Shown: piece by piece, positions 10,327 to 24,186 of the stretch
Layout of the letters: the number at the start of each line of letters is the position of its first letter
How positions within the stretch are numbered: position 1 is the first letter of the stretch
Origin: Aminobacter ciceronei
GTDB lineage: Bacteria; Pseudomonadota; Alphaproteobacteria; Rhizobiales; Rhizobiaceae
Length of the DNA: 64,000 bases
NCBI RefSeq assembly: GCF_014138625.1
Contig: NZ_JACJHY010000003.1
Location: 186,001-250,000 of the forward strand
Reading direction: 5' to 3'
Translations under genes and position numbers: made by a program
The notes under the pieces: model-generated
What the model was told of the DNA's origin: nothing
The model's input: only the letters and a program-made list of their open reading frames with translations
Databases searched by the model: none

Positions 10327-10348
10327 TTATCAATAAAGTTGGCGATAA
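10327..10348. promoter_or_regulatory. Candidate operator TTATC-N12-GATAA (plus-strand cluster copy)
   Basis: A 22-bp dyad with TTATC and GATAA half-sites separated by 12 bases. It shares 15 of 22 positions, with identical spacing, with the motif at 22342-22363 upstream of the ABC-importer operon. It lies 106 bp before the cupin ATG. It may be the site of the GH3-GntR regulator encoded at the end of the importer operon. Confidence 0.5.
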
Positions 10349-10453: not shown

Positions 10454-10849
10454 ATGGACATCCGCTCGAGCGATTTCACGCGACCGACACTCGAGCACCA
10501 GGGCACCACGCCGGTGTGGTGGCTGGTGCCGCCGCGCGCGATGCGGGACGCGACGCTGGGCGGCCATCTCGAACTGATCAGCGAGTTCGAGATCCGCGCC
10601 GGCGGTGAGGTCAACACCCACCACCACCCCACCTACGAGTTCTATTTCATGCTCTCCGGCCGGGCGCTGATGACCATCGAGGACGAGACCCGCGAGATCG
10701 GCCCCGGCGACCTGGTCACGATTCCGCCCAATGCGCGGCACTCGATCAAGCCGGCGCACGAGCATAACGGCATCCGGGCGCTGGCCATGGCCTTCGGCGT
10801 CAAGGATGCGCCCGTCGTCGACTATTCGACCGACCCGGAAAGCTACTGA
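10454..10849 (+). CDS. Cupin-domain protein
   Basis: Single-domain cupin of 131 residues. The metal-binding cupin motif 1 is visible as GGEVNTHHHPTYEFYFMLSGRALM (about 50-75) and motif 2 as IGPGDLVTIPPNARHSIKP (about 85-105). Three consecutive His plus a Glu in motif 1 and a His in motif 2 would hold a divalent metal. AAGGAG stands at a good distance before the ATG. It heads a plus-strand run of seven genes, so it may isomerise or modify the pathway's sugar-like substrate. Its reaction cannot be deduced. Confidence 0.85.
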   Translation: MDIRSSDFTRPTLEHQGTTPVWWLVPPRAMRDATLGGHLELISEFEIRAGGEVNTHHHPTYEFYFMLSGRALMTIEDETREIGPGDLVTIPPNARHSIKPAHEHNGIRALAMAFGVKDAPVVDYSTDPESY

Positions 10850-10878
10850 CCCCTTTCATCCAGGCTGCGACCACGACA

Positions 10879-11874
10879 ATGACCATCACCCTCTATGCCG
10901 GGCTCGCCGGCGACACCGATCCCGGCCGCTTCATGAGCTCAGGCCTGCTGCGCAGCCGCGATGGCGGCGCCTGGGAGCGGATCGAGAAAGGCTTTCCCGC
11001 CGTACCGCAGACATTCGCCCTGCTCGCCGATCCCAGACGTCCGGGCGAAGTGTTCGCCGCCGCGCAGGACGGCATCTTCCGCAGCACGAACTATGGCGAC
11101 AGCTGGTCCCGGCTCGACGCGCCGAAGCCGGAGTTCGCAGTGTGGTCGCTGACCCGTCATCCGCATGAGCCGGACACGCTGTTTGCCGGCTACGAGCCGC
11201 CGGCGATCTTCAAGTCGACCGACAATGGCCGCAGCTGGCGTAGCCTCGACGTCTCGGTCGGCTACCCCGACATCACGGCCGGCATGCCAAGGCGCATCAC
11301 CCGCATTGCCGTCGACCCCACCAATGCGGACAGGATCTACGCCAGCATCGAGATCGGCGGCCTGATCATGTCGGAGGACGGCGGCCGCAGCTGGCGCCAG
11401 GCGCTCGACGGGCTCTATGTCGTCGAGGATGCCGTCGACCTGCATTCGGTGCTTGTTGATGCCGAGGGCAAGGTGTCGGTGACGACACGTGTCGGCGCTT
11501 TCCAGAGCCGCGATCACGGCCGCCGCTGGCGCAAGCTGCCGGTGCCGGCACTGCGCGAAAAGGGCTCCTATTGCCGCGTCCTCGGCCAGGGCCCGGCTGA
11601 CACGATCTATCTCGGCGCCGGCAACGATTTCGATGGCGACCTGGGCGACTTCTTCCGTTCTACAGATGGCGGCGCGAGCTTCCAGCGCCTTGATCTCGGC
11701 GCGCCCCTGAAGAGCACCGTCTTTGCCATGGCTGTCGACCCGACCGACCCGAAGCGGCTCGTCTGCTCGGACAAGTTCGGCCAGGTTTTCCTGAGCGACG
11801 ATGCCGGCGACAGCTGGCGTGCGCATCCGCTTCCCCGTGGCATCGGCCATGTCTTTTCCATCGCCATCGGCTGA
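10879..11874 (+). CDS. Seven-bladed Asp-box (BNR) beta-propeller protein
   Basis: 331 residues with seven evenly spaced Asp-box motifs: SRDGGAWERI, STNYGDSWSRL, STDNGRSWRSL, SEDGGRSWRQA, SRDHGRRWRKL, STDGGASFQRL and SDDAGDSWRAH. This pattern predicts a sialidase/VPS10-like seven-bladed propeller. No signal peptide or membrane segment is seen, so it is probably cytoplasmic, unlike most sialidases. The sialidase Arg triad cannot be assigned with confidence, so enzymatic activity is unproven. It lies 29 bp after the cupin gene and 10 bp before the aldolase gene in an apparent operon. Confidence 0.8.
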   Translation: MTITLYAGLAGDTDPGRFMSSGLLRSRDGGAWERIEKGFPAVPQTFALLADPRRPGEVFAAAQDGIFRSTNYGDSWSRLDAPKPEFAVWSLTRHPHEPDTLFAGYEPPAIFKSTDNGRSWRSLDVSVGYPDITAGMPRRITRIAVDPTNADRIYASIEIGGLIMSEDGGRSWRQALDGLYVVEDAVDLHSVLVDAEGKVSVTTRVGAFQSRDHGRRWRKLPVPALREKGSYCRVLGQGPADTIYLGAGNDFDGDLGDFFRSTDGGASFQRLDLGAPLKSTVFAMAVDPTDPKRLVCSDKFGQVFLSDDAGDSWRAHPLPRGIGHVFSIAIG

Positions 11875-11884
11875 GGGGCGCATC

Positions 11885-12577
11885 ATGGCCAATCCGTTCA
11901 AGCAACGCCTTCTGCGGGACGAACCCGTCGTCGTCCTCAACCCCGACCATCCCTCGCCGGCATTGACCGAGTTCCTCGGCCGGCTTGGGATCGACGGCGT
12001 GTTCATCGATTGCGAGCATGGCACGGCCTCGATCCAGACCGTACAGGACATGTGCCGCGCGGCGCGTGCCGCCGGCCTGCAGTCCATCGTCCGGCCGGAA
12101 GCCAATCTCGACCATCTGCTCACGCGTTACCTCGACGCCGGCGCCGGCGGCCTGATCGTGCCGCATGTCGACGATGCCGACGGCGCCCGCAGCATCGTCG
12201 CGGCGGTCCGCCGGGCCCGACCGCAGAACCATGAGGATACCGTCGTGGTGGCGATGATCGAGTCGCTCGAGGCGGTCGCCAACCTCGATGCCATCGTCGC
12301 CGTCGAAGGCGTCGACGCGTTCTTCATGGGCCCCAACGACCTGTCGCATTCGATGGGCCTGAACGGCCAGACCCACCATCCCGACGTCAAGCGCCTCGTC
12401 CTCGATTGCGCCGCCAAAATCCGCGCCGCAGGCAAGGTGCCGGGAACGCTGGTGACGCGCGACACGGTCGCCGCCTTCGTCCGCGGCGGCTGCCGCTTCC
12501 TCTACGAGCATGCCAACAATTTCCTGGTCACCGGAGCCAACGACTTCCGGCACATAATGAAAGAGAGCAACACATGA
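11885..12577 (+). CDS. HpcH/HpaI-family aldolase
   Basis: Class II pyruvate-type aldolase of 230 residues that cleaves or forms 2-keto-3-deoxy acids using a divalent metal. The start at 11885 follows GAGGGG; an earlier in-frame start would run into the propeller gene. Motifs: FIDCEHGTAS, SIVRPEA, DAGAGGLIVPHVDDAD (the metal-site region), MIESLEAVANLDAI and AFFMGPNDLSHSMG. Its stop codon overlaps the next gene's ATG (ATGA). It is a good candidate for the carbon-carbon cleavage step that feeds the pathway product into central metabolism. Confidence 0.88.
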   Translation: MANPFKQRLLRDEPVVVLNPDHPSPALTEFLGRLGIDGVFIDCEHGTASIQTVQDMCRAARAAGLQSIVRPEANLDHLLTRYLDAGAGGLIVPHVDDADGARSIVAAVRRARPQNHEDTVVVAMIESLEAVANLDAIVAVEGVDAFFMGPNDLSHSMGLNGQTHHPDVKRLVLDCAAKIRAAGKVPGTLVTRDTVAAFVRGGCRFLYEHANNFLVTGANDFRHIMKESNT

Positions 12578-12924
12578 GCAAGATTGAACGGCTGCGCCAG
12601 GGCGAGCGCATGTCGCAGATCGTCATCCACGGCGACACGGTCTATCTCGCCGGCCAGACGGCCACCGATCCGGTGCCGTCCGTCGCCGAGCAGACACGGC
12701 AGATCCTCGCCAAGATCGACACCTATCTCACTGAGGCCGGCACCGACAAGTCGAAGATCCTGTCGGCCAACATCTGGCTTACCGACGTGGCCACCTTCGA
12801 GGAGATGAACGCGGTCTGGGACGCCTGGGTCGCCAAAGGCAACACGCCGGCGCGCGCCACCGTCGGATCGCCGCTGGCGCGGCCGAAGAACCTGGTCGAA
12901 ATCGCCGTCATCGCGGCGCGTTGA
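12574..12924 (+). CDS. RidA-family enamine/imine deaminase-like protein
   Basis: 116-residue RidA (YjgF/YER057c/UK114) protein. RidA enzymes hydrolyse reactive enamine/imine intermediates made by amino-acid or amino-sugar enzymes. Motifs: VYLAGQTATDP, QTRQILAKIDTYLTEAGTDKSKIL and NTPARATVGSPLARPKNLVEI. The Arg of PAR, at the usual catalytic position, is present. ATG and the preceding stop overlap (ATGA), so it is coupled to the aldolase gene. This suggests the substrate contains nitrogen, in line with the amidase further down. Confidence 0.88.
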   Translation: MSKIERLRQGERMSQIVIHGDTVYLAGQTATDPVPSVAEQTRQILAKIDTYLTEAGTDKSKILSANIWLTDVATFEEMNAVWDAWVAKGNTPARATVGSPLARPKNLVEIAVIAAR

Positions 12925-12951
12925 GCGCCGCGCCAAACCTCAACTGAAAAC

Positions 12952-12990
12952 CCGGTCCGAACCGGCAAGCGCTTGCTCGACCTGTCGAGC
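12952..12990. promoter_or_regulatory. Cluster of three short palindromes before the oxidoreductase gene
   Basis: Adjacent dyads in the 107-bp gap before the Gfo/Idh/MocA gene: CCGGT-CCGA-ACCGG (12952-12965), the perfect palindrome GCAAGCGCTTGC (12965-12976), and GCTCGA-CCTG-TCGAGC (12975-12990). The central one resembles LacI/GalR-family operators with a CG centre. The set could equally form RNA structure within the operon. Confidence 0.4.
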
Positions 12991-13031
12991 GGGAATGCCG
13001 GCCTGCGGCCAGAGAAAACGGAAGAACTGCC

Positions 13032-14207
13032 ATGTCACGTCAATTGGGAGTGGGGCTCTACGGGGCCGGAAATATTGTCCACGACGGCCATGCGCCGGCC
13101 GTTGCGGCTGGTGTCTCGACCAGGCTCGCCGCGGTTTGCGACATCGATGAGGCGCGCGCCCGGACGCTGGCCGACGCCTATGGCGGCGCCAACATCTACA
13201 CCAGCCTGGACAAGATGCTCGCCGATCCGTCCGTCGACATCGTCATCATGGCCACGCCCAACAACCTGCATCGCCGCGACTTCGAGGCCTGCGCCCGTGC
13301 CGGCAAGCATGTGCTGTGCGAGAAGCCGCTGGCCGTCACCTATCCCGACGCGATCGCTATGGCCAGGATCGCCGAGGAGCACAAGATCGTGCTCAAGACC
13401 GGCTTCAACCAGCGCTACCTCAATCAGATTCGCATGGCCAAACTCGCCATTGAGGCCGGTCTGATCGGCGAAGTGTTCTCCTTCCGCACCGTGTTCTCGG
13501 CGAAATGGGACAACTGGGTCGACGGCTCCAACTTCCGCTGGGATCTCGAACGGTCGGGCGGCGCCACCACCAACGACAACCTGATCCACCGCTTCGACAT
13601 GCTGCGTTACCTGCTCGATGACGACTATGCCGAAGTCGTGGCCGATGTCAGCCACTGCGTCATCCCGCCGGTCGTCGACGACAACGTCCATCTGATGGTC
13701 CGCACCAACAAGGGCGCGCGCGGCTCCTTCATCGCCGACCGCTATTCGCCGGTGCTCGGCGATGCCACCGAACTCTACGGCACCAAGGGCTCGCTGTCGT
13801 TCTGGACCAATGCCGGCTCGCCCTTCTTCGACGTGCCGCTCGCCATCAACACCACGGTGCCGATGAACGAGTTGCCGGAACCGATCAGCAAGGCCGTCTA
13901 CCCCACTGCGCGCTCCAAGCAGAACCGCCATGCCTGGGACGGCTGGCTGTCGATCTGGCCGCCGCGCAACGAATGGGACACCTATGCCGAGCAACTCGCC
14001 GGCATGGCTGAGGAAATCCTCTCCGGCACACGCGACGGCATCGGCGCCACCGGCTTCGACGGCGCCCGCGCCACCGAGCTGGTCCATGCCGCCTACAGCT
14101 CGCAGATTGCCCGCGCCTGGGTGTCGCTGCCTTTGGCCGACGACGCGCCCTTCGCATTTCCCGATTTCGAGGGCCACGGCTACGATGCCAAGGCGGGCCG
14201 GTCATGA
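13032..14207 (+). CDS. Gfo/Idh/MocA-family oxidoreductase
   Basis: NAD(P)-dependent sugar or inositol-type dehydrogenase of 391 residues. The N-terminal Rossmann fold begins GLYGAGNIVHDGHAPAV (about 8-25), followed by ATPNNLHRRDFEAC and the family hallmark LCEKPLAVT (about 95-103). The C-terminal substrate domain has FNQRYLNQIRMAKLAIEAGLIGEV and RSGGATTNDNLIHRFDMLRYL. The family name comes partly from mannopine/rhizopine (moc) catabolism, and the neighbouring isomerase and Pot-like importer fit an opine- or amino-sugar-like substrate; that is inference. Its stop overlaps the next ATG. Confidence 0.9.
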   Translation: MSRQLGVGLYGAGNIVHDGHAPAVAAGVSTRLAAVCDIDEARARTLADAYGGANIYTSLDKMLADPSVDIVIMATPNNLHRRDFEACARAGKHVLCEKPLAVTYPDAIAMARIAEEHKIVLKTGFNQRYLNQIRMAKLAIEAGLIGEVFSFRTVFSAKWDNWVDGSNFRWDLERSGGATTNDNLIHRFDMLRYLLDDDYAEVVADVSHCVIPPVVDDNVHLMVRTNKGARGSFIADRYSPVLGDATELYGTKGSLSFWTNAGSPFFDVPLAINTTVPMNELPEPISKAVYPTARSKQNRHAWDGWLSIWPPRNEWDTYAEQLAGMAEEILSGTRDGIGATGFDGARATELVHAAYSSQIARAWVSLPLADDAPFAFPDFEGHGYDAKAGRS

Positions 14208-15031
14208 TCAGCGCCGGCTTCTACAGCACCTTCCTGCACCAGCTGCCCGTCACTGAGTTGGCGGGCAAGCTGTCGCAGGCCGGCTACAGCTCGGTCGAGC
14301 TCAATGGCGACCTGTGGAGCAACGGCTTCGTGCCGCATGTGACGCCGGCACTCGATGCGGCAGGCCGGGCCGAGGTCGCCCGCGCCATTTCGGCTGCCGG
14401 CATGAACATCTCGGCACTGAGCGCCTGCCTGCATCTCGCCAAGGAGAAACAGGAGGAACGCCGCGCCGGCATCGACTATCTCAAGGCATCGGTAGACCTG
14501 GCGCGCGACATCGGCGCGCCTATGGTCTGGGTCTTTACCGGCCGCGCCTTCGGCGGCATCGACATCGCGACGGCGCGAAAGTACCTGGCCGCCGCCCTGG
14601 AGGAGGTCTGCGACCACGCCAGGGATCGCGGCGTCAAGTTCGGCATCGAAGGCTGCTCGATGCACATCGTCGCCAAGGCCGACGAATATCTCGACCTGTT
14701 CAAGGCGATCCCCGGCTCTGATGTCCGCGTCGCTTTCGATCCGACCCATTTCCAGCTGCGCGGCGAGGATCCGGTCAGGGCGGCGGAGCTGCTGTTCGAC
14801 CGCATCAGCAATCTCCACGTCAAGGATTCGGTCGGCCTCTATCCCGACTTCAAATGCGTGCCGCTCGGCACCGGCGAGGTCGACCTGAAGGCCGTCACCG
14901 ACACCTTGCGGCGCCTTGGCTACGCCGGTTCCGCCTCGGTCGAATATGAATCGCACCTGTTCGGCTGGGAGATCCCGGCTGACGACGTCATCCGCGACAG
15001 CCGCGCCTTCCTGCGCGTGCTCGGCATCTGA
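14204..15031 (+). CDS. Sugar phosphate isomerase/epimerase (xylose-isomerase-like TIM barrel)
   Basis: 275-residue AP_endonuc_2/xylose-isomerase-like barrel of the IolE/IolI/MocC type. Metal-site segments appear in order: GYSSVELNGDLW, GAPMVWVFTGRAFGG, KFGIEGCSMHI, VRVAFDPTHFQLRGEDPV, ISNLHVKDSVGL and SASVEYESHLFGWEIP. The Glu, Asp/His, His and Glu ligands expected of the barrel are present. It overlaps the oxidoreductase gene by four bases. Paired with a Gfo/Idh/MocA enzyme, it probably isomerises or dehydrates a keto-sugar intermediate. Confidence 0.87.
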   Translation: MISAGFYSTFLHQLPVTELAGKLSQAGYSSVELNGDLWSNGFVPHVTPALDAAGRAEVARAISAAGMNISALSACLHLAKEKQEERRAGIDYLKASVDLARDIGAPMVWVFTGRAFGGIDIATARKYLAAALEEVCDHARDRGVKFGIEGCSMHIVAKADEYLDLFKAIPGSDVRVAFDPTHFQLRGEDPVRAAELLFDRISNLHVKDSVGLYPDFKCVPLGTGEVDLKAVTDTLRRLGYAGSASVEYESHLFGWEIPADDVIRDSRAFLRVLGI

Positions 15032-15043
15032 ACGGAGACGCCC

Positions 15044-16513
15044 ATGTCGCGCTCGCCTATCGGGCCGTTCAAGGAGTTCGACGATTACGACGCGCTTGGC
15101 CTTGCCGATCTGGTGCGCCGCCGCGAGGTCAGCTCCCGCGAACTTCTGGAGACGTCGATCGCCCGCATCGAAGCGCTCGACGGGGTGCTGAATGCCGTCG
15201 TCATCCGCTGTTTCGAAAAGGCGCTCGCCCTTGCCGAGACCGCGCCGCCCGCCGGACCCTTTGCCGGCGTGCCCTATCTGGCCAAGGACCTGCATACCTC
15301 ATGGGCCGGCATTCCCTCGACAAACAGCATCTCGTCCTTCGCCGGCACTGTTTCCCAGTCGGATTCGCTGATCACCCAGCGGACCAAGAACGCCGGCTTC
15401 ATCCTGCTCGGCAAGACCAACACGCCGGAATGGGGCTGGTCGCTGACGACAGAGTCGCCGATGCATGGCCCGGCGCGAAACCCCTGGGCCTTCGACAGGA
15501 CACCGGGCGGTTCGAGCGGCGGGGCGGCAGTGGCGGTCGCGGCGGGATATCTTCCGCTCGCCGACGCCGGCGACGGCGCCGGTTCCACCCGTGTACCGGC
15601 GGCGATCAACGGGCTGGTCGGCCTCAAGCCGTCGCGCGGCCGGATTTCGCCGGGACCCGAGGCGACCGACTTCTGGTTCGGCGGCGGACAGTCCTCATGC
15701 GTGTCGAAAACGGTGCGCGACACAGCGGCCATGCTCGACGCCTTGCAGGGCGGTTATCCGGGTGAGCCCTATTACATCAGGGAGCGCCCGTCGTTCCTCG
15801 ACAGCACTGCGCCCTCCAATCGGCGTCTGCGCATCGGCTTCAGCCTCAACAACCCACGTGGCGATGCCAACAGCATCGTCGTCGACGAGGCCGTCTGCGA
15901 TGCGGCGCGGCTCTGTGGCGCGCTCGGGCACGAGGTCGAACCGTTCGATTTCGACTATGATTTCGAGAGCCTGTGGCGTGCCTATACCGGCATGATCCGG
16001 GTCCAGACCGCGGCTCAGTTTGACGATCATGCCCGGGCGCGGGGTGTTCCCAACAAGCCGTCCGACATGTCGGCGACGATCTGGACGACGATCGAACACG
16101 GTCGGGCGACCAGCGCCATCCAGCACAGCCGCGACATCGAGGCGATGCGCCGGCATTCCCGCCACATCGCCACGCTGACCTCGCGCTACGACGTCGTGCT
16201 GCTGCCGGTCCTGCCGCAGGGTACCCGCCCGCTCGGCTATTACGACATGTCCAAGGACATCGACGCCTATGACGCCTCGGCGATGGGCGAGGACACGGTC
16301 TACATGATGCCGTTCAATGTCTCGGGACAGCCGGCACTGTCGCTGCCGCTCGGCATGGACCGTTCGGGCCTGCCACTCGGCGTCCAGCTTGTCGCCCCAC
16401 CGGCCGGTGAAGCCGCGTTGATCGAGCTCGCGGCATCACTTGAACGGGCCCGCCCCTGGTATGATCGGCGCGCGCCGTTCCATGCCGCCAACGGGGTCGG
16501 CGGCAGGTTCTGA
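15044..16513 (+). CDS. Amidase-signature family hydrolase
   Basis: 489-residue amidase with the Ser-cisSer-Lys triad visible. The Lys lies in GVPYLAKDLHTSWAG (about 72-86), the cis-Ser in TPGGSSGGAAVAVAAG, and the nucleophile Ser in GDGAGSTRVPAAINGLVGLKPSRG. The signature is slightly altered (GDGAGSTR where TDGGGSIR is common), as in some 6-aminohexanoate cyclic-dimer-hydrolase-like members. It is the last plus-strand gene of the cluster and converges on the GH3-GntR gene with a 2-bp gap. It presumably releases ammonia or an amine from an amide in the pathway. Confidence 0.9.
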   Translation: MSRSPIGPFKEFDDYDALGLADLVRRREVSSRELLETSIARIEALDGVLNAVVIRCFEKALALAETAPPAGPFAGVPYLAKDLHTSWAGIPSTNSISSFAGTVSQSDSLITQRTKNAGFILLGKTNTPEWGWSLTTESPMHGPARNPWAFDRTPGGSSGGAAVAVAAGYLPLADAGDGAGSTRVPAAINGLVGLKPSRGRISPGPEATDFWFGGGQSSCVSKTVRDTAAMLDALQGGYPGEPYYIRERPSFLDSTAPSNRRLRIGFSLNNPRGDANSIVVDEAVCDAARLCGALGHEVEPFDFDYDFESLWRAYTGMIRVQTAAQFDDHARARGVPNKPSDMSATIWTTIEHGRATSAIQHSRDIEAMRRHSRHIATLTSRYDVVLLPVLPQGTRPLGYYDMSKDIDAYDASAMGEDTVYMMPFNVSGQPALSLPLGMDRSGLPLGVQLVAPPAGEAALIELAASLERARPWYDRRAPFHAANGVGGRF

Positions 16514-16515
16514 AG

Positions 16516-18225
16516 TCAGTGCCGGACGCCGTTCGCCATGTGATGGGCGAACGGCCGGTCGAAATGCGCCGCGCACAATTTGCCCAGGCGCTCGAGGTCC
16601 TGGTCCTCCAGCGCCTTCACCATCTCGTCATGTTCGGCGAGCGACGGCTCGACGAGGGTGTCGGCCATCAGGCTCGCGGCATCGATGCTGCGCATGCCGG
16701 CATCACAATCATGGATCGAGCGGGCAATGAACTCGTTGCCGGTCGCTTCGAGCAACAGATCGTGGAAGGCGCGGTCCTGGACATAAGCCAGCTCGAGATC
16801 GCCGACCGAAATCGCCGAGCGATGGATCTGCCTTGCATGTTCGAGTTTGTTCATCAGCACCGGCGACACCGGCAGGCGAATGCGCTGCACGGCGGCGGCG
16901 ATCAAGAGCTGGCGCACGTCGTGCAGCTTGACCAGGTCGTCCGGTGACAGGTGGCGCACCACCGCACCGCGATAGGGTTCGAGCTTGACCAGCCCGGTGC
17001 GTGCCAGTTCCTGCAGCACGGCACGTGCGACGTGGCGCTTGACGCCGAGGCCGTAGACCAGCTCGTCCTCCATGATCCGCTCCTTGGGCAGGATGCGGCC
17101 GAGCACGATATCGCGCTCGATCTTCTTGGCGACATTGCCGACGATCTCGGACGAGCGCGTCGTACCCGACTGGCGGGCCCGCGCGCCAAGCGGCTTGAGC
17201 AGTTCCTCCAGCTTGCGTGCGGTTTCGGCCAGGTCGATCGCCGAAGGCCGGCGACGCATGCGCTCGGCGCGGTGCAGACGCTCGACCGCATTCTCCGACA
17301 ACGGCATCGCGGCATCGGCGACACGCTGCATCTCGTCCATGTCGCCGCTGCCGTGCAGGATGACGTCGCAGCCGGCCTCCTGCGTCGCGCTGACCTGGGC
17401 ATCGATCGGATGGGTGCGGCTGATGTCCGAGACATCGTCGCTCATCAGCACGCCGTCGAAGCGGATCATGCCGCGGATGATCTCATCGATGACGGTGCGC
17501 GAGGCGGTAGCCGGCGCGTCGCGGTCGATGGCCCGGTAGATGACGTGGGCTGCCATGGCGCAGGGCATGTCCTGCAGCGAGCGGAACGGCACGAAGTCGG
17601 CCGACTGCATCTCGTCGAGCGAGGCGTTGACCACCAGCAGCGCCTCCGACTTGTCCTGCCGGGCGCGGCCATGGCCGAGAATATGCTTGATGACGGGCAG
17701 CACACCGCCGGCCAGCAGCCCCTCGCAGGTGGCGCGGCCGAGAATGCTCGCCATTTCAGGCGTGTCTCCCAGCGCCCGGTCGCCGATCACCAGGTCGCCC
17801 TTGCCGATCGGCAGGTCGAGCACAGGCGCGATGTTGATGTCGATACCGAGGTCGAACAGTTCGGCCGCGACGAGGCGTGCGTTGAGGCGCACGGCATCGA
17901 GTGCCCGCTTGACGTCGGTGCGGGCGATCTGGGCGAACAGCGAGGCCGGCGGGGGCGCGCGCCAGTGCGGTGGCGCCAGCCTGGCGACGCGGCCGCCCTC
18001 CTGGTCGATCAGCACGCGCACGTCGCTGCGGCCAACGCTTTCGCGCAGTTCCGCCACCAAAGTGCGCAGTTGTGCAGGGTCGGCGCAATTGCGCTTGTGC
18101 AGGATGAAGCCCCAGGGCTGGGCGGCGCGGAAGAAGCTGCGTTCGGCAGCGTTCAGGCTGGTGCCCGCGCAGCCGAACACCACGGCCTTCGGTTGGGTTC
18201 GGTCAATTGTCAGCGGCATGGTCAT
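16516..18225 (-). CDS. GH3 (NagZ-like) domain fused to a GntR/FCD transcription regulator
   Basis: 569-residue fusion from the ATG at 18225 (GAGAG upstream; an in-frame TTG at 18246 would add seven residues). Residues about 10-325 are a glycoside hydrolase 3 fold resembling beta-N-acetylglucosaminidase NagZ: GFILHKRNCADPAQ, IDQEGGRVARLAPPHWR, NIAPVLDLP, IKHILGHG, FDGVLMSDD. NagZ-type proteins have Asp-x-His after GHG as acid/base dyad; here it reads Asp-Lys-Ser (about 191-193), while the SDD nucleophile motif remains. Residues about 355-425 are a GntR winged helix (AKKIERDIVLGRILP, KRHVARAVLQELARTGLVKLEPYRGAVV), followed by an FCD-like ligand domain. I read the GH3 part as a sensor. The gene lies 89 bp after the last importer gene. 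Confidence 0.85.
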   Translation of the reverse strand: MTMPLTIDRTQPKAVVFGCAGTSLNAAERSFFRAAQPWGFILHKRNCADPAQLRTLVAELRESVGRSDVRVLIDQEGGRVARLAPPHWRAPPPASLFAQIARTDVKRALDAVRLNARLVAAELFDLGIDINIAPVLDLPIGKGDLVIGDRALGDTPEMASILGRATCEGLLAGGVLPVIKHILGHGRARQDKSEALLVVNASLDEMQSADFVPFRSLQDMPCAMAAHVIYRAIDRDAPATASRTVIDEIIRGMIRFDGVLMSDDVSDISRTHPIDAQVSATQEAGCDVILHGSGDMDEMQRVADAAMPLSENAVERLHRAERMRRRPSAIDLAETARKLEELLKPLGARARQSGTTRSSEIVGNVAKKIERDIVLGRILPKERIMEDELVYGLGVKRHVARAVLQELARTGLVKLEPYRGAVVRHLSPDDLVKLHDVRQLLIAAAVQRIRLPVSPVLMNKLEHARQIHRSAISVGDLELAYVQDRAFHDLLLEATGNEFIARSIHDCDAGMRSIDAASLMADTLVEPSLAEHDEMVKALEDQDLERLGKLCAAHFDRPFAHHMANGVRH

Positions 18226-18335
18226 CACACTCTCGGCGGACTGCACAAGACCGACTTGTCGCCACCACGGCCATCAACTTGGCAGAAAAGCTGTCGGCGC
18301 GGAAGCCGTCAGCGCCCGTGCCCACCGCCTGCCGG

Positions 18336-19136
18336 TCACGACGGCTCCTGCCGCTGGCGCCCGAAGACCACCGTGACGACCATGGCGACAAGCACGATCC
18401 AGATCGTCGAGATCACTGCGGCCTGAGGGTCGACGCGGTCGCGCAGGCCGAGGAACATCACCTTGGTCAGCGTCGTGTTGGCGCCGCCACCGACGAACAT
18501 CGACACGATCACTTCGTCGAGCGATGTCAGGAAGGACAGCAACGCCGCCGACAGCAAGGGAAAACGCATCTGCGGGATGACGACAGAAATCATCGTCCGC
18601 CACCAGCCGGCGCCAAGGCTGCGCGAGGCCTTCTCCTGGGTGAAATCGAAGCGGGCAAAGCCGGCGGACAGGATGACATAGGCGGTCGGAATGGCGATCA
18701 CCGTATGCCCGAGCCAAAGGCCCGGGAACGAGCCGACGAGATGCAGGCGGGCCAGCACGAAGAACAGGCCGATGGCGACGAGGATCGGCGGCACGGTGGC
18801 CGGCATCAGGAGAACGCCATAGAGCGGCAGCCTGGCCCAGCCGAGCGAACGCGTGGTGGCGTAGGCCGCGGCAAAGGCGATCGGCACGGCAACCGCGGCG
18901 GTGACGGTGGCCAGCAGCAGGCTGGTCTTGGTCGCCGGCATCCACAGGTCGGACTGCCAGTACTGCTGCCACCAGCGCAGCGAAAATTCGGTCGGCGGGA
19001 ACTGCAGCAGTTCGGAGGCCGAGAACGACATCGGCACCACGATCAGTGAAGGTGCCAACAGGAAGGTCGCCACCAGCGCGGTGAAAATGCCGATCGCCAG
19101 GCGCAGCGGCCAGGAGACGTCGAAACCGTCAAACAT
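18336..19136 (-). CDS. ABC importer permease, PotC type
   Basis: 266-residue inner-membrane permease of a spermidine/putrescine-like (Pot) ABC importer. Six hydrophobic segments are evident, e.g. LAIGIFTALVATFLLAPSLIVV near the N-terminus and WIVLVAMVVTVVFG near the C-terminus. The cytoplasmic EAA-like loop that docks the ATPase reads ASRSLGAGWWRTMISVVIPQM. It overlaps the preceding permease by eight bases. Pot-type systems take up polyamines, opines or other small cationic compounds; the substrate here is unknown. Confidence 0.88.
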   Translation of the reverse strand: MFDGFDVSWPLRLAIGIFTALVATFLLAPSLIVVPMSFSASELLQFPPTEFSLRWWQQYWQSDLWMPATKTSLLLATVTAAVAVPIAFAAAYATTRSLGWARLPLYGVLLMPATVPPILVAIGLFFVLARLHLVGSFPGLWLGHTVIAIPTAYVILSAGFARFDFTQEKASRSLGAGWWRTMISVVIPQMRFPLLSAALLSFLTSLDEVIVSMFVGGGANTTLTKVMFLGLRDRVDPQAAVISTIWIVLVAMVVTVVFGRQRQEPS

Positions 19137-20049
19137 TGGCGCTGCCTCCGAGGGCCTTGATGCTGCGGCGAAGCAGGAACGTGACGAGGAACACCAGCCC
19201 GACGGACAACAGCAAGAGCACGCCGAGCGCGCTTGCCGCCGGCCAGTCGGACAGCACCGAGACGTTCTGTTCGATGCGGGTCGAAATCATCGGCACGCGG
19301 CCGCCGCCGAGGATGGCGGGGGTGACGTAGAAACCGAGGCTGAGGACGAACACCAGCACAGCACCGGCGAAGATGCCGTTGGCGGCCAGCGGCAGGATCA
19401 CCGCCCGCAGGGTCAGGAGCTTGCTGGCGCCGAGGCTGGCTGCGGCGCGGATGATGTTGTGGTCGATTTGCTTGATCGCGGCATAGACCGGCAGGATGAA
19501 CAGCGGCAGCATCACATGGGTCATGCCGACGATGGTGCCGAAGAAGTTGTTGATCAGCGGCAGCGGCTCCGAGACCAGCCCGGTGTCGATCAGGAAGCTA
19601 TTGACCAGGCCGTTGCGCTGCAACAGCACCGAGAGCGCGTAGGTGCGGACCAGAAGCGCCGTCCAGAACGGCAACATCACCACGAGCAGCAGGATCGAAG
19701 CGAGCCGCTGGCCGGCGCTGGCCATGACCAGCGCGAATGGCGTGCCCAGGAGCATGCAGGTCAGCACCGTCATGCCGCTGACCTGGAAGGTGGTCAGTAC
19801 CGAGCGCGTATAGACCGGAGTGCTCAGGATCCTGAGATAGGTGTCGAGCGACACAGAGCCGTCGGGCCGGGCGATCGATATCCAGAACATCGCCGCCAGC
19901 GGCACGACGATGGCGATGGTGACCAGCAGCACCGCCGGCAGCGCCAGACCGAAGAGGCCGATCTGCGCCAATTTGCGGTCCCGCCGCAAGAGGGCTGAGT
20001 TGTCGAAGGCGCCGTCTGCCGCCGGCAAGGTCATAGCCGGCGCGCTCAT
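19129..20049 (-). CDS. ABC importer permease, PotB type
   Basis: 306-residue permease partner of the importer. Six or seven membrane segments are seen, starting with IGLFGLALPAVLLVTIAIVVPLAAMFWIS. The EAA-like ATPase contact is HNIIRAAASLGASKLLTLRAVILPL. The start overlaps the ATPase gene's stop (ATGA), and the end overlaps the second permease. Order in the operon: binding protein, ATPase, permease, permease, GH3-GntR regulator. Confidence 0.88.
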   Translation of the reverse strand: MSAPAMTLPAADGAFDNSALLRRDRKLAQIGLFGLALPAVLLVTIAIVVPLAAMFWISIARPDGSVSLDTYLRILSTPVYTRSVLTTFQVSGMTVLTCMLLGTPFALVMASAGQRLASILLLVVMLPFWTALLVRTYALSVLLQRNGLVNSFLIDTGLVSEPLPLINNFFGTIVGMTHVMLPLFILPVYAAIKQIDHNIIRAAASLGASKLLTLRAVILPLAANGIFAGAVLVFVLSLGFYVTPAILGGGRVPMISTRIEQNVSVLSDWPAASALGVLLLLSVGLVFLVTFLLRRSIKALGGSANV

Positions 20050-21095
20050 GCGTCGATCACCGGGATCAGCGCATCGCGCCGCACATGCAACTTGAGCGGC
20101 GCACCTTCGGCCAGCGCCTCGAGGTTGAAATTCGCCGCCTCGGCAGCGGCGATGCGCGCCGAGACGGCTCCGCCGTTCGCCAGATCGACGGAGATGAGCC
20201 AGCTGTCGCCCTGGAACACCGAGCGCGTCAGCGTGCCGCTGAGTGATACATGGTCGTGGCCGCTGGCATCGGAAAGCGACAGTCTTTCGGCGCGGATCAT
20301 CAGCTTGCGGCCAGCACCAGTGGCATCCCGCTCCGGGGCAACGAAGCTTTCCACCGCATCGAGTTCGAGAATGTTGGCCTCGCCGAGGAACTCGGCGACA
20401 AAGCGCGACGTCGGCCGATGATACAACGAAGCCGGTGTTCCGAGCTGGCGGATGACACCGTCGCGCATCACGGCAATGCGATCCGACATCGTCAGCGCCT
20501 CGCGCTGGTCGTGCGTGACATAGACGGTGGTCAGCCCTAACCGGTCGTGCAGCTTCCGAATCTCATACTGCATCTGCTCGCGCAGGTTCTTGTCGAGCGC
20601 CGACAGCGGCTCGTCCATCAGCATCAGTCGGGGTTCGAACACCACGGCGCGGGCGAGCGCCACACGCTGCTTCTGCCCGCCGGACAGCGTGGCGATGTCA
20701 CGTTCGGCCATGTTGGCGAGATCGACGATGTCGAGCGCCTTTCTGGCACGTTCGGCAGCCTCTGCGCGGCCGATGCCGCGGACGCGCAGGGGAAACATGA
20801 CGTTGGCAGCAACATTCATGTGCGGAAACAGGGCGTAGTTCTGGAACACCACGCCGATGCCGCGCTTGTTGGCGGGCAGGCGGACAAGGTCGCGTCCATC
20901 GACGGAAATCTGTCCGCGATCAGGCCTGACGAACCCGGCAAGCGCCATCAGAAGCGTGGTCTTGCCGGAGCCCGAGGGGCCGAGAATGCTCAGGAATTCG
21001 CCGCGCCCGACGTCGAGGCCGACGTCGTTGAGGGCGCGGAAGGATCCGTAGGCTTTCGAAAGATTGCGGATTTCGATGAACGCAGCACTTGTCAT
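20046..21095 (-). CDS. ABC importer ATP-binding protein, PotA type
   Basis: 349-residue ATPase powering the Pot-like importer. Walker A is [17 protein letters not shown] (about 37-50), the Q-loop VVFQNYALFPHM, the ABC signature LSGGQKQRVALARA, Walker B RLMLMDEPLSALD, and the H-loop VYVTHDQREALTMSD. A C-terminal TOBE regulatory domain (about 265-345) is present, as in CUT1/Pot ATPases. It starts 30 bp after the binding-protein gene and overlaps the next permease gene. Confidence 0.93.
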   Translation of the reverse strand: MTSAAFIEIRNLSKAYGSFRALNDVGLDVGRGEFLSILGPSGSGKTTLLMALAGFVRPDRGQISVDGRDLVRLPANKRGIGVVFQNYALFPHMNVAANVMFPLRVRGIGRAEAAERARKALDIVDLANMAERDIATLSGGQKQRVALARAVVFEPRLMLMDEPLSALDKNLREQMQYEIRKLHDRLGLTTVYVTHDQREALTMSDRIAVMRDGVIRQLGTPASLYHRPTSRFVAEFLGEANILELDAVESFVAPERDATGAGRKLMIRAERLSLSDASGHDHVSLSGTLTRSVFQGDSWLISVDLANGGAVSARIAAAEAANFNLEALAEGAPLKLHVRRDALIPVIDA

Positions 21096-21125: not shown

Positions 21126-22187
21126 TCAGCGCGACATCATTTCCTGGAAGCCGAGCTGGGCTTCGCCGACATGTTCGACCCACCATTCATTGCGTTGGGC
21201 AAGCTGGTGCGCGGCGTTGTCGGGATAGGTCGGCAGCTTCTTCGAGGCGTCGTCGGGGATGAGGCCGGTCTCGTAGGCACGCTTGTTGGCCGCGCCATAC
21301 TTCACCCCGACCGAAAACTTGGCCTGGGCTTCCGGCTTGGACATCTCGTTGATCATCTTCATCGCTTCGGCGGCATGCGGGGCTCCGACCGGCACCGCCC
21401 AGCAATCCATGCTCATGACGCCCTGGTTGAAGGTGTAGTCGATCTTGGCCCCGTCCTTCTTGGCGGCTTCGAAACGGGCGTTCCAGCCCACCGACATGTC
21501 CACTTCCTTGTCCTTCATCAGCTGCGCGTGCTGGGCACCCGAATTCCACCACACCGCGATGTGCGGACGCAACTGCTCGATCTTGTCGAGCGCGCGCTGC
21601 ATGCCGCCCTCAGATCCCAGCACCTCGTAGACCTTGTCCATCGGCACGCCGTCGGCAAGCAACGCGATCTCGAGTTGCGCCTCGGCGTCGTTGCGCATGG
21701 CGCGGCGGCCCGGGAACTTCTCGACGTCCCAGAAGTCGGCCCAGCTCTGCGGCGCCTGGTCCTTGTAGGCGTCGGTATTCCAGGCCATGACCCAGGAGAA
21801 GATCAGCGCCGAGATGCAGTATTTCTGCGCCGTGCCTTCGATGAAGTCCTTGGAGTCGATGACGCTGTAGTCGAGCGGCATGAACAGGCCCTCGCGGCCG
21901 CCCTTTTCAGCCTGGAAGGCGTTGGTCTGTACGAGGTCGAAGCTCACCGCATTGGCCGCCGCCTGCAGCTTCACCGAGGCATAGGCGTCGTTGATGGTTT
22001 CCTCGCGCACGGTGTTGCCGAGCGTCTTGGCCGCCGGTCCCCACAGGGTCTCGCGGCCGACCTCCTGGATCACGCCGCCGCCGACGGCGACCGTCATCTC
22101 AGCCGCCTGGGCGGCCTGGCCTGCAATGCCCCACGCGGCAAGCAGCGCACAGGCAGAAAGAGAGTTCCTCACATTTTTCCGGATCAT
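21126..22187 (-). CDS. Periplasmic substrate-binding protein of a Pot-like ABC importer
   Basis: 353-residue exported solute-binding protein of the PotD/SBP_bac_8 type. I chose the ATG at 22187, preceded by GGGGA; a Sec signal peptide follows directly (LSACALLAAWGIAGQAAQA, cleavage near AQAAE). The mature protein starts MTVAVGGGVIQEVGRETLWGP. It contains the typical hinge and pocket segments SWVMAWNTDAYKDQAPQSWADFWDVEKFPGRRAM and AVPVGAPHAAEAMKMINEMSKPEAQ. As first gene of the minus-strand operon, it lies 155 bp downstream of the TTATC-N12-GATAA motif. Confidence 0.9.
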   Translation of the reverse strand: MIRKNVRNSLSACALLAAWGIAGQAAQAAEMTVAVGGGVIQEVGRETLWGPAAKTLGNTVREETINDAYASVKLQAAANAVSFDLVQTNAFQAEKGGREGLFMPLDYSVIDSKDFIEGTAQKYCISALIFSWVMAWNTDAYKDQAPQSWADFWDVEKFPGRRAMRNDAEAQLEIALLADGVPMDKVYEVLGSEGGMQRALDKIEQLRPHIAVWWNSGAQHAQLMKDKEVDMSVGWNARFEAAKKDGAKIDYTFNQGVMSMDCWAVPVGAPHAAEAMKMINEMSKPEAQAKFSVGVKYGAANKRAYETGLIPDDASKKLPTYPDNAAHQLAQRNEWWVEHVGEAQLGFQEMMSR

Positions 22188-22341: not shown

Positions 22342-22363
22342 TTATCGATCCGCTTATCGATAA
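22342..22363. promoter_or_regulatory. Candidate operator TTATC-N12-GATAA (importer copy)
   Basis: Perfect 8-bp arms, TTATCGAT and ATCGATAA, flank CCGCTT. It shares half-sites, spacing and 15 of 22 positions with the motif at 10327-10348 before the plus-strand catabolic genes. It lies 155 bp upstream of the binding-protein ATG. A single regulator of both arms, most simply the GH3-GntR protein, is inferred. Confidence 0.55.
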
Positions 22364-22725: not shown

Positions 22726-23415
22726 TCATCGTATTGGGGCAAGACCATCGAGCAGATAGTCGAGGCCCTTGCGGAAGGCGCCGTCCCAATCGCTGTCCAG
22801 CAACAGGCGGGAGCGTTCGATCGTGGGATAGCGTTCGCTGAGTCCGGCGAGGCGTTGCTGTGCTGCGGCCTGGTCGTCGTCGGTGAGTTCGAAGCTCGCC
22901 CGGGTGATGGTCGAGCCCATCACGTGGTTCCACAGTGACCAGATCGCGACGTTCAGATCTGCATCCGCTACACCTGCTTTGGACAAGGCGTTGGCAAGCA
23001 ATTCCAGGCGACCGAGGATATTCGGGCCGAGTGCCCGGCGCGGCAACAGCGATGCCGACCAGGGATGGCGCAGCATGCTGGCGCGCCAGCCCTCGAGCAC
23101 ATGTACGGCCTCTTGCCGCCACCCCTGGGGTTCGGCCCTGTCGGACGGCGCGCGGTATTCGAGCACCTTGTCGAGCGCAAGGTCGAAAACGTCCTCCTTG
23201 TTGTCGACGTGCCAGTAGAGGCTCATCACCCCTGAGCCGAGACGATCGGCCAACCGTCGCATCGTCAGTCCGTCGATGCCTTGGGTGTCCAGCAGCTCCA
23301 CCGCGGTCGCCACGATGCGTTCCAGAGACAGGGGCGGCTCGCCGCGCGGCTCGCGCGTCGGTCTTGGCGACTTGCCGGGCTGAGGCCGTTTTTTGCCGCT
23401 GCGTTTGCCTGCCAT
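22726..23415 (-). CDS. TetR/AcrR-family transcriptional regulator
   Basis: 229-residue repressor. A basic N-terminal tail precedes the TetR_N helix-turn-helix (about 30-75: LSLERIVATAVELLDTQGIDGLTMRRLADRLGSGVMSLYWHVDNKEDVFDLALD). The C-terminal part resembles the tetracycline-repressor-like C domain (TetR_C family). It is transcribed away from the exported RidA-like gene, and a palindrome overlapping that gene's promoter (23631-23641) is its likely operator. Ligand unknown. Confidence 0.88.
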   Translation of the reverse strand: MAGKRSGKKRPQPGKSPRPTREPRGEPPLSLERIVATAVELLDTQGIDGLTMRRLADRLGSGVMSLYWHVDNKEDVFDLALDKVLEYRAPSDRAEPQGWRQEAVHVLEGWRASMLRHPWSASLLPRRALGPNILGRLELLANALSKAGVADADLNVAIWSLWNHVMGSTITRASFELTDDDQAAAQQRLAGLSERYPTIERSRLLLDSDWDGAFRKGLDYLLDGLAPIR

Positions 23416-23623
23416 CCGTCGTCCCCACTTGCGCCACGATTTCTGAATTCGCTACCGACATTCGTTTTGCAGGCGGACGTCGCAATCGAATGGCCTGAAA
23501 TCAATAAGTTGCCGTCATCACGGCACGGAGTTCTGCCCGTCGCCTGATTTCCAATTCGAGCGAAAACACCGTTCGTGAGCTTCGACTTTGGCAGTCGACG
23601 TCAGGAAAGTCGATGCCCGGCAG

Positions 23624-23653
23624 TTGACTAGTACAATGTACCATAGGACTAAT
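23624..23653 (+). promoter_or_regulatory. Promoter with embedded TetR-type operator
   Basis: TTGACT at 23624-23629 looks like a -35 element. An imperfect -10 lies around 23645-23653. Between them sits the palindrome GTACAATGTAC (23631-23641). A dyad in the spacer is the classic arrangement for TetR-family repression of the RidA-like gene 45 bp downstream. Confidence 0.55.
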
Positions 23654-23697
23654 CGCACGGCCGCCAGTGGCGGGCCGCGGAACCAAAGAGAAAAATC

Positions 23698-24186
23698 ATG
23701 TCACGCAAAATCAAGCATCTGCTTGTCGGAGGCCTAATCACCATGACCATGTCACTTCCCACCGCGACGACGGCCAACGAGAGCGATCTCAGGCTGACAA
23801 TCGTCAACCCCGAGAACCTCTACGACCCGACGCCGAACGGCTACAGCACGGCGGTCATCGTTCCCGCCGGTGCGCGTGTCGCCTACATCTCGGGGCAGGG
23901 CGGCCAGGACGCCACCGGCAGCCTGTCGCCCGACTTCTCCGTTCAGGTGAAGCAGGCCTATGCCAATCTGCGTAGCGCTCTCGACGCTCTCGGCGCAAAG
24001 CCCGACCAGGTCGCCAAGCTCACCGTCTACGTCGTCGACCACGACATGTCGAAGCTCGGCGTGCTGACGGAGAGCGTCAAGGCGATGTTCGGCAACACGC
24101 TACCGGCCCAGACGCTGATCCCCGTCCCCAAACTCGCCGTCGACCCAATGCTGTTCGAGGTCGAGGCTGTCGTCTTGCTGAAATAG
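23698..24186 (+). CDS. Exported RidA-like protein lacking the catalytic Arg
   Basis: 162-residue RidA/YjgF-fold protein with an N-terminal signal-peptide-like segment (KIKHLLVGGLITMTMSLP, probable cleavage near TTANES), unusual for a normally cytoplasmic family. The core reads VAYISGQGGQDATG, QVKQAYANLRSALDALGAKPDQVAKLTVYVVD and FEVEAVVLLK. At the position where enzymatic RidA proteins have PAR, this one has PAQ, so imine deaminase activity is doubtful. It is divergent from tetR, whose product probably controls it. Confidence 0.82.
   Translation: MSRKIKHLLVGGLITMTMSLPTATTANESDLRLTIVNPENLYDPTPNGYSTAVIVPAGARVAYISGQGGQDATGSLSPDFSVQVKQAYANLRSALDALGAKPDQVAKLTVYVVDHDMSKLGVLTESVKAMFGNTLPAQTLIPVPKLAVDPMLFEVEAVVLLK

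Follow-up and report, generated by a model that had tools for sequence, protein, structure and literature searches.

A GntR/FCD regulator fused to a NagZ-type GH3 domain lacking the catalytic histidine, a candidate sugar-responsive transcription factor of Aminobacter

At positions 16516 to 18225 on the minus strand of the 64-kb window (the whole stretch of DNA that was analysed), ORF reading gives a single unbroken frame of 569 aa. The original prediction of a one-frame fusion between an enzyme domain and a regulator was upheld, as GH3, GntR and FCD all lie above their Pfam gathering scores. They are the only Pfam domains in the protein, and GNAT is absent. The NagZ-type GH3 domain covers aa 1-312 (17290..18225, minus strand), with PF00933 matched at aa 39-312 (134.8 bits against a curated score of 27). 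It is followed by a GntR winged-helix DNA-binding domain at aa 364-423 (16957..17136, minus strand; PF00392, 36.9 bits) and an FCD domain at aa 434-556 (16558..16926, minus strand; PF07729, 55.8 bits). A winged helix and then an FCD domain is, by Pfam, the layout of the FCD subfamily of the GntR family. For the GH3 part, the best NCBIfam model is NF003740 (beta-N-acetylhexosaminidase), which scores 198 bits and thus falls below its cut-off of 207, and the solved structures closest by sequence are the bacterial beta-hexosaminidases 5g5u and 5g1m. Starting instead from a GTG at 18246 would lengthen the protein by seven residues. Because a 2-bp indel lies immediately 5' of the ATG at 18225 in both other fusion-bearing species, this ATG is favoured as the start, and an ATG at 18219 may be an alternative.

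The FCD domain carries the four residues, three His and an Asp, of a metal site that occurs in part of the subfamily. In the FCD alignment the three His columns are invariant, and the Asp lies four residues ahead of the first His. Metal ligands of FCD domains, three His and one Asp or Asn, have been described (PMC7797058). With these residues in place, the FCD domain may act as a second sensor.

The genes of an ABC importer point toward the fusion gene from its upstream side. These minus-strand genes encode a substrate-binding protein (21126..22187; PF13416, with PotD as the best NCBIfam model, far below cut-off), an ATPase (20046..21095; profile searches), permease 1 (19129..20049; named by eye and by its place) and permease 2 (18336..19136; profile searches), the last ending 110 bp short of the start of the fusion gene. 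The importer resembles polyamine-type PotD/PotA systems, with scores below the curated cut-offs. From the other side, plus-strand catabolic genes at 10454-16513 converge on the fusion gene. They begin with a small protein, cupin-like by eye (10454..10849), followed by a BNR-repeat/YCF48-like protein (10879..11874; Pfam), an HpcH/HpaI-type aldolase (11885..12577; profile searches, start picked by eye), a RidA-like protein (12574..12924; below the NCBIfam cut-off), a Gfo/Idh/MocA dehydrogenase (13032..14207; best NCBIfam model IolG, below cut-off), a sugar isomerase/epimerase-like TIM barrel (14204..15031; PF01261) and an amidase (15044..16513; PF01425). On plasmids, only distant relatives of the Gfo/Idh protein were found (<60% identity). 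Just past the importer operon, at 22726-24186 of the window, lie genes for a TetR-type regulator and a RidA-like protein (signal peptide by eye), which are also conserved in the two other species with the fusion. A role in anti-phage defence was ruled out, PADLOC giving no match.

Relatives of the importer are found near an IolG/IolD-like set in genome G105 (all below curated cut-offs), near MR/MLE and GMC genes in G265 and G208, and near an aldehyde dehydrogenase gene in G106. No single substrate of the pathway follows from these neighbours.

Alignment of upstream regions from the three species with the fusion revealed a candidate operator before each operon. One is the palindrome TTATCGATAA, found ahead of the importer operon (22354..22363, no strand assigned), and the other is TTATCAATAA, which differs from it by one base and stands before the catabolic operon (10327..10336, plus strand); both sites are present in all three species. 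As a perfect palindrome, TTATCGATAA occurs in a single copy in the 6.77-Mb genome, before the binding-protein gene. The pattern TTATCNATAA has two sites in the window, one before each operon, and 0 in 100 shuffles, the window sites having been spotted first and tested afterwards. Across the 6.77-Mb genome it has six sites, compared with 2 for a reversed control pattern. One of the other four genomic sites was inspected; it falls within an open reading frame whose product, by eye, is an ABC permease.

Among the free-standing relatives found for the GntR half, the nearest belong to the same family (up to 39% identity), with those of other families and classes at 30-37%. The region from -300 to +30 of their own genes was searched for the palindrome in 34 such relatives, one of which had 13 upstream bases only. 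An exact copy was present in 4 of the 34 and a copy with at most one mismatch in 13, which are not 13 independent events because the 34 include near-copies (e.g., L067/L068 and L117/L119); 21 were without it. Each of 19 control palindromes of the same letters was found in at most one relative. No copy of the palindrome occurred in roughly 193 kb of sequence from 50 NagZ loci, some of which were included twice, or in the importer locus of G105 (L140). For the nearest relative found, that of G106 (39%), the one-mismatch site ATATCGATAA stands 25 bp ahead of the gene, and a homologous importer is encoded about 4.5 kb away (binding protein 47%, ATPase 54%). Since a near-unique palindrome is shared by both operons and also stands upstream of GntR relatives, the fusion protein most likely controls the importer and catabolic operons, as these predicted sites suggest. 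The proposal that it regulates the adjacent importer and pathway is thus supported.

The motif KHILGHGRARQDKSE was found in the GH3 domain, and its D-K-S aligns with the D-S-H of 5g1m, the NagZ of P. aeruginosa. In a GH3 acetylglucosaminidase, the Asp-His dyad provides the acid/base (PMC4680927). The first reading of the sequence had Asp-Lys-Ser in place of Asp-x-His and a retained SDD nucleophile motif, and both observations hold: the fusion has D191-K192-S193, with Ser at a place that is His in each of the 45 free-standing NagZs aligned, and SDD is at residues 262-264. The same loss of His was found in the fused orthologues of all three carrier species. The alignment was built from GH3 genes of the fetched loci, with fusion copies, duplicates and a distant group at about 30% identity removed (L025, L054-L058, L089 and L092, all D-S-H). 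The GH3 domain of the fusion is about 39-53% identical to the 45 aligned proteins.

Of the 78 positions that at least 95% of these NagZs share, the fusion retains 66 and alters 12 (F43H, C132I, P183L, H193S, P197L, L206M, G255R, M267D, A269S, L270R, G272H and C292G). Three of the changes fall in the catalytic loop and four (M267D, A269S, L270R and G272H) right after SDD, which could mean that the pocket has been reshaped or serves another use. The sugar-contact residues D74, R150, K180 and H181 are retained, as judged by motif position alone against the residues named for Ngs1 (see below). A fold model of the fusion protein, built from five rows, is weak (mean pLDDT 59.1) and therefore unfit for judging the pocket. 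To annotate a gene of this kind simply as NagZ would be misleading. Among other GH3 proteins encountered, NagZ homologues on four IMG/VR contigs have the dyad as D-S-H (L128) or N-S-H (L129-L131). A diverged GH3 (39%) on a plasmid of Rhizobium sp. N731 (L125:7028-8035), which sits between ABC importer genes and thiamine genes, has D-S-H but SDC for SDD.

The fusion is intact in three of ten genomes of the genus Aminobacter, namely the host (G000), G002 and G001, with the same full-length frame at 99% identity in G002 and 96% in G001. A full-length copy at 96% in A. anthyllidis (NZ_JAFLWW010000006) was taken as the same record as G001. Gene order around the fusion is the same in all three species. 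A sequencing or assembly fusion of two genes was ruled out by the presence of the same full-length frame in three species.

Further searches covered 394 genomes of the family with a full-length query (E<=1e-88, best three or fewer candidates per genome). Among the candidates scored, 24 genomes matched, with whole-length matches in G000 and G002 only. With the GntR half as query, 394 genomes of the family, 385 of the class and 398 of the phylum were searched (best seven or fewer candidates per genome), and the matches listed outside Aminobacter were mostly of single-regulator length, some being longer (up to 642 aa from stop to stop). No GH3 was detected by tblastn (E<=1e-3) beside the GntR relatives in 42 fetched loci, nor in nine longer-frame cases fetched later, in eight of which the GntR half was found again. 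As a positive control, the same GH3 query detected GH3 in all three fusion loci. No plasmid record had 80% of the query covered in one place, and six exact 8-residue peptides searched against contigs of 84,980 species returned one full-length copy. In the samples searched, from which very divergent fusions would escape, no fused homologue was found outside Aminobacter.

Selection on each part of the fusion was estimated as dN/dS by the Nei-Gojobori method, with the host compared to G002 and to G001. The values were 0.000 and 0.028 for GH3, 0.000 and 0.000 for GntR (no amino-acid change among the three species), 0.088 and 0.133 for FCD, and 0.000 and 0.084 for the linker. Ten neighbouring genes, a set that excludes the TetR gene and both RidA-like genes, gave 0.040-0.174, and GH3 is below each of the ten. 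The GH3 domain is therefore under strong purifying selection despite its missing acid/base His. As this inactive-looking domain is more constrained than all ten neighbours computed, a decaying remnant is unlikely.

It is proposed with a probability of roughly 0.6 that the fusion is a one-component regulator, in which the GntR domain would bind TTATCGATAA-type palindromes while a retired GH3 domain would hold a sugar-like ligand and signal to the GntR-FCD part. The targets of the GntR helix would be the palindrome ahead of the importer operon and the one ahead of the convergent catabolic operon. The importer operon would run on into the gene of its own regulator, with which it is probably co-transcribed. 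Without its acid/base His, the GH3 domain would hold the ligand uncut and relay the signal to the GntR-FCD part, a role as ligand sensor that is plausible from the protein sequence. FCD domains dimerise, and they are able to sense ligands on their own; the one in the fusion would form the dimer, and a metal as well as a further ligand may bind to it. Relief of repression by a ligand is common in FCD regulators, and the same direction of control is presumed here.

The expected ligand is an N-acyl-amino-sugar-like or aminocyclitol-like compound taken up by the adjacent importer, or its product. A polyhydroxylated compound that bears an amide or amine group would match the encoded enzymes (Gfo/Idh, isomerase, amidase, RidA and aldolase). 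Since the importer relative of G105 lies near IolG/IolD-like genes, a cyclitol or amino-cyclitol seems no less plausible than an amino sugar. Charged residues newly present close to the motifs (K192, D267 and R270) would argue against plain GlcNAc.

The proposed sensing by GH3 has to be weighed against the possibility that FCD alone senses, as in ordinary FCD regulators, with GH3 as an appendage for oligomerisation or stability. The three His and Asp of the metal site would suit such a protein, as would the GH3-less relative (39%) near a homologous importer. However, FCD is less constrained than GH3 in both comparisons, and 66 of 78 near-invariant NagZ positions are kept, sugar contacts included. 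Mere bulk would not need these conserved positions, and this explanation is regarded as unlikely, at somewhat better than one chance in five.

Alternatively, the protein could still be both an enzyme and a regulator: its nucleophile is kept, and it might act on a substrate whose leaving group is good, or use another acid/base. Retention of SDD and of the dyad Asp is compatible with this, as is the strong purifying selection. The replacement of the dyad His by Ser, of two conserved Pro nearby and of the Met after SDD speaks against it, and a like loss in Ngs1 came with no detectable activity (PMC5063960). Residual catalysis appears quite improbable.

In the GH3 tree, the fusion is placed apart from the Aminobacter NagZ; its branch is long (1.24) and falls among further NagZs of Alphaproteobacteria, where its position is weak; bootstrap support is not settled and its values are rough. 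The housekeeping nagZ, which lies between a SPOR gene and scpA, is reduced to a C-terminal remnant of 165-183 bp in G000, G001, G002, G004 and G007 (L111-L115), the remnant of G000 being visible only at a laxer search setting, and is retained in G005 and G006. Each of the five genomes with a remnant carries another GH3 with intact D-S-H and SDD. The one in G000 is found at C3:17743, near a 1027-aa gene that by eye encodes an RND pump. In G004 and G007 the fusion is absent and nagZ is eroded as in the fusion hosts. The fusion thus cannot be taken simply as a substitute for nagZ. That it is the relocated housekeeping nagZ of its hosts, reporting on cell-wall recycling, would agree with the erosion of nagZ in all three but is very improbable, given the equal erosion without a fusion in G004 and G007, the intact D-S-H of the other GH3s, the catabolic look of the neighbouring genes and the separate grouping in the tree, which speaks against this origin, albeit with rough bootstrap values.

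If regulation by a retired GH3 domain is confirmed, the same enzyme fold would have become a sugar sensor on two occasions, once in fungi and once in bacteria, with the same residue lost and the grip on the sugar kept. It would also be a new kind of sensor domain for GntR, a large family of bacterial regulators. The chances are about even that the fusion is a bacterial transcription factor which reads a sugar through a retired NagZ, independently of Ngs1, and perhaps integrates a sugar at GH3 with a metal-bound acid at FCD. What makes the protein interesting is its parallel with Ngs1, together with the possible new GntR sensor domain; a narrow distribution of three species tempers this interest. 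No bacterial GH3-GntR regulator was found in the titles and abstract openings of the literature searched. With a predicted operator in hand, the DNA-binding and sensing halves are both directly testable.

Among known systems, NagZ (NF003740; 5g1m) shares the GH3 domain with the fusion. Unlike NagZ, the fusion lacks the dyad His, falls below the NF003740 cut-off and is joined to a regulator. MocR proteins consist of a GntR helix fused to an aminotransferase fold, and thus also link a GntR helix to an enzyme-derived domain; however, the enzyme fold and the position of the helix are different and there is no FCD. In G265, a MocR-type protein (L141:12686-14164) is encoded at a distance of one gene from a homologous importer, so that another GntR-enzyme fusion occupies a comparable place. 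The VanR-type FCD regulator Atu1419 (PDB 6z74) has the 10-bp palindromic operator ATGTATACAT (PMC7797058). It shares with the fusion the GntR helix, an FCD with metal ligands and the format of a short 10-bp palindrome, which in the fusion is a candidate, whereas the fusion has an additional N-terminal GH3 and a different operator sequence.

The closest parallel in function may be Ngs1 of Candida albicans, a NagZ-like GH3 protein in which the dyad His is Leu and hydrolase activity was not detected (PMC5063960). Ngs1 senses GlcNAc and acts through histone acetylation, its GH3 being fused to a GNAT domain, and D74, R145 and K175-H176 are required for GlcNAc signalling (PMC5063960). A NagZ-like GH3, a lost dyad His, retained GlcNAc-contact residues and a partner in gene control are common to both proteins. 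Ngs1 is eukaryotic, with a His to Leu change and a GNAT partner unrelated to GntR, whereas the fusion is bacterial, with a His to Ser change. The fusion would thus work like an Ngs1-type GH3 pseudoenzyme sensor without being a member of that group.
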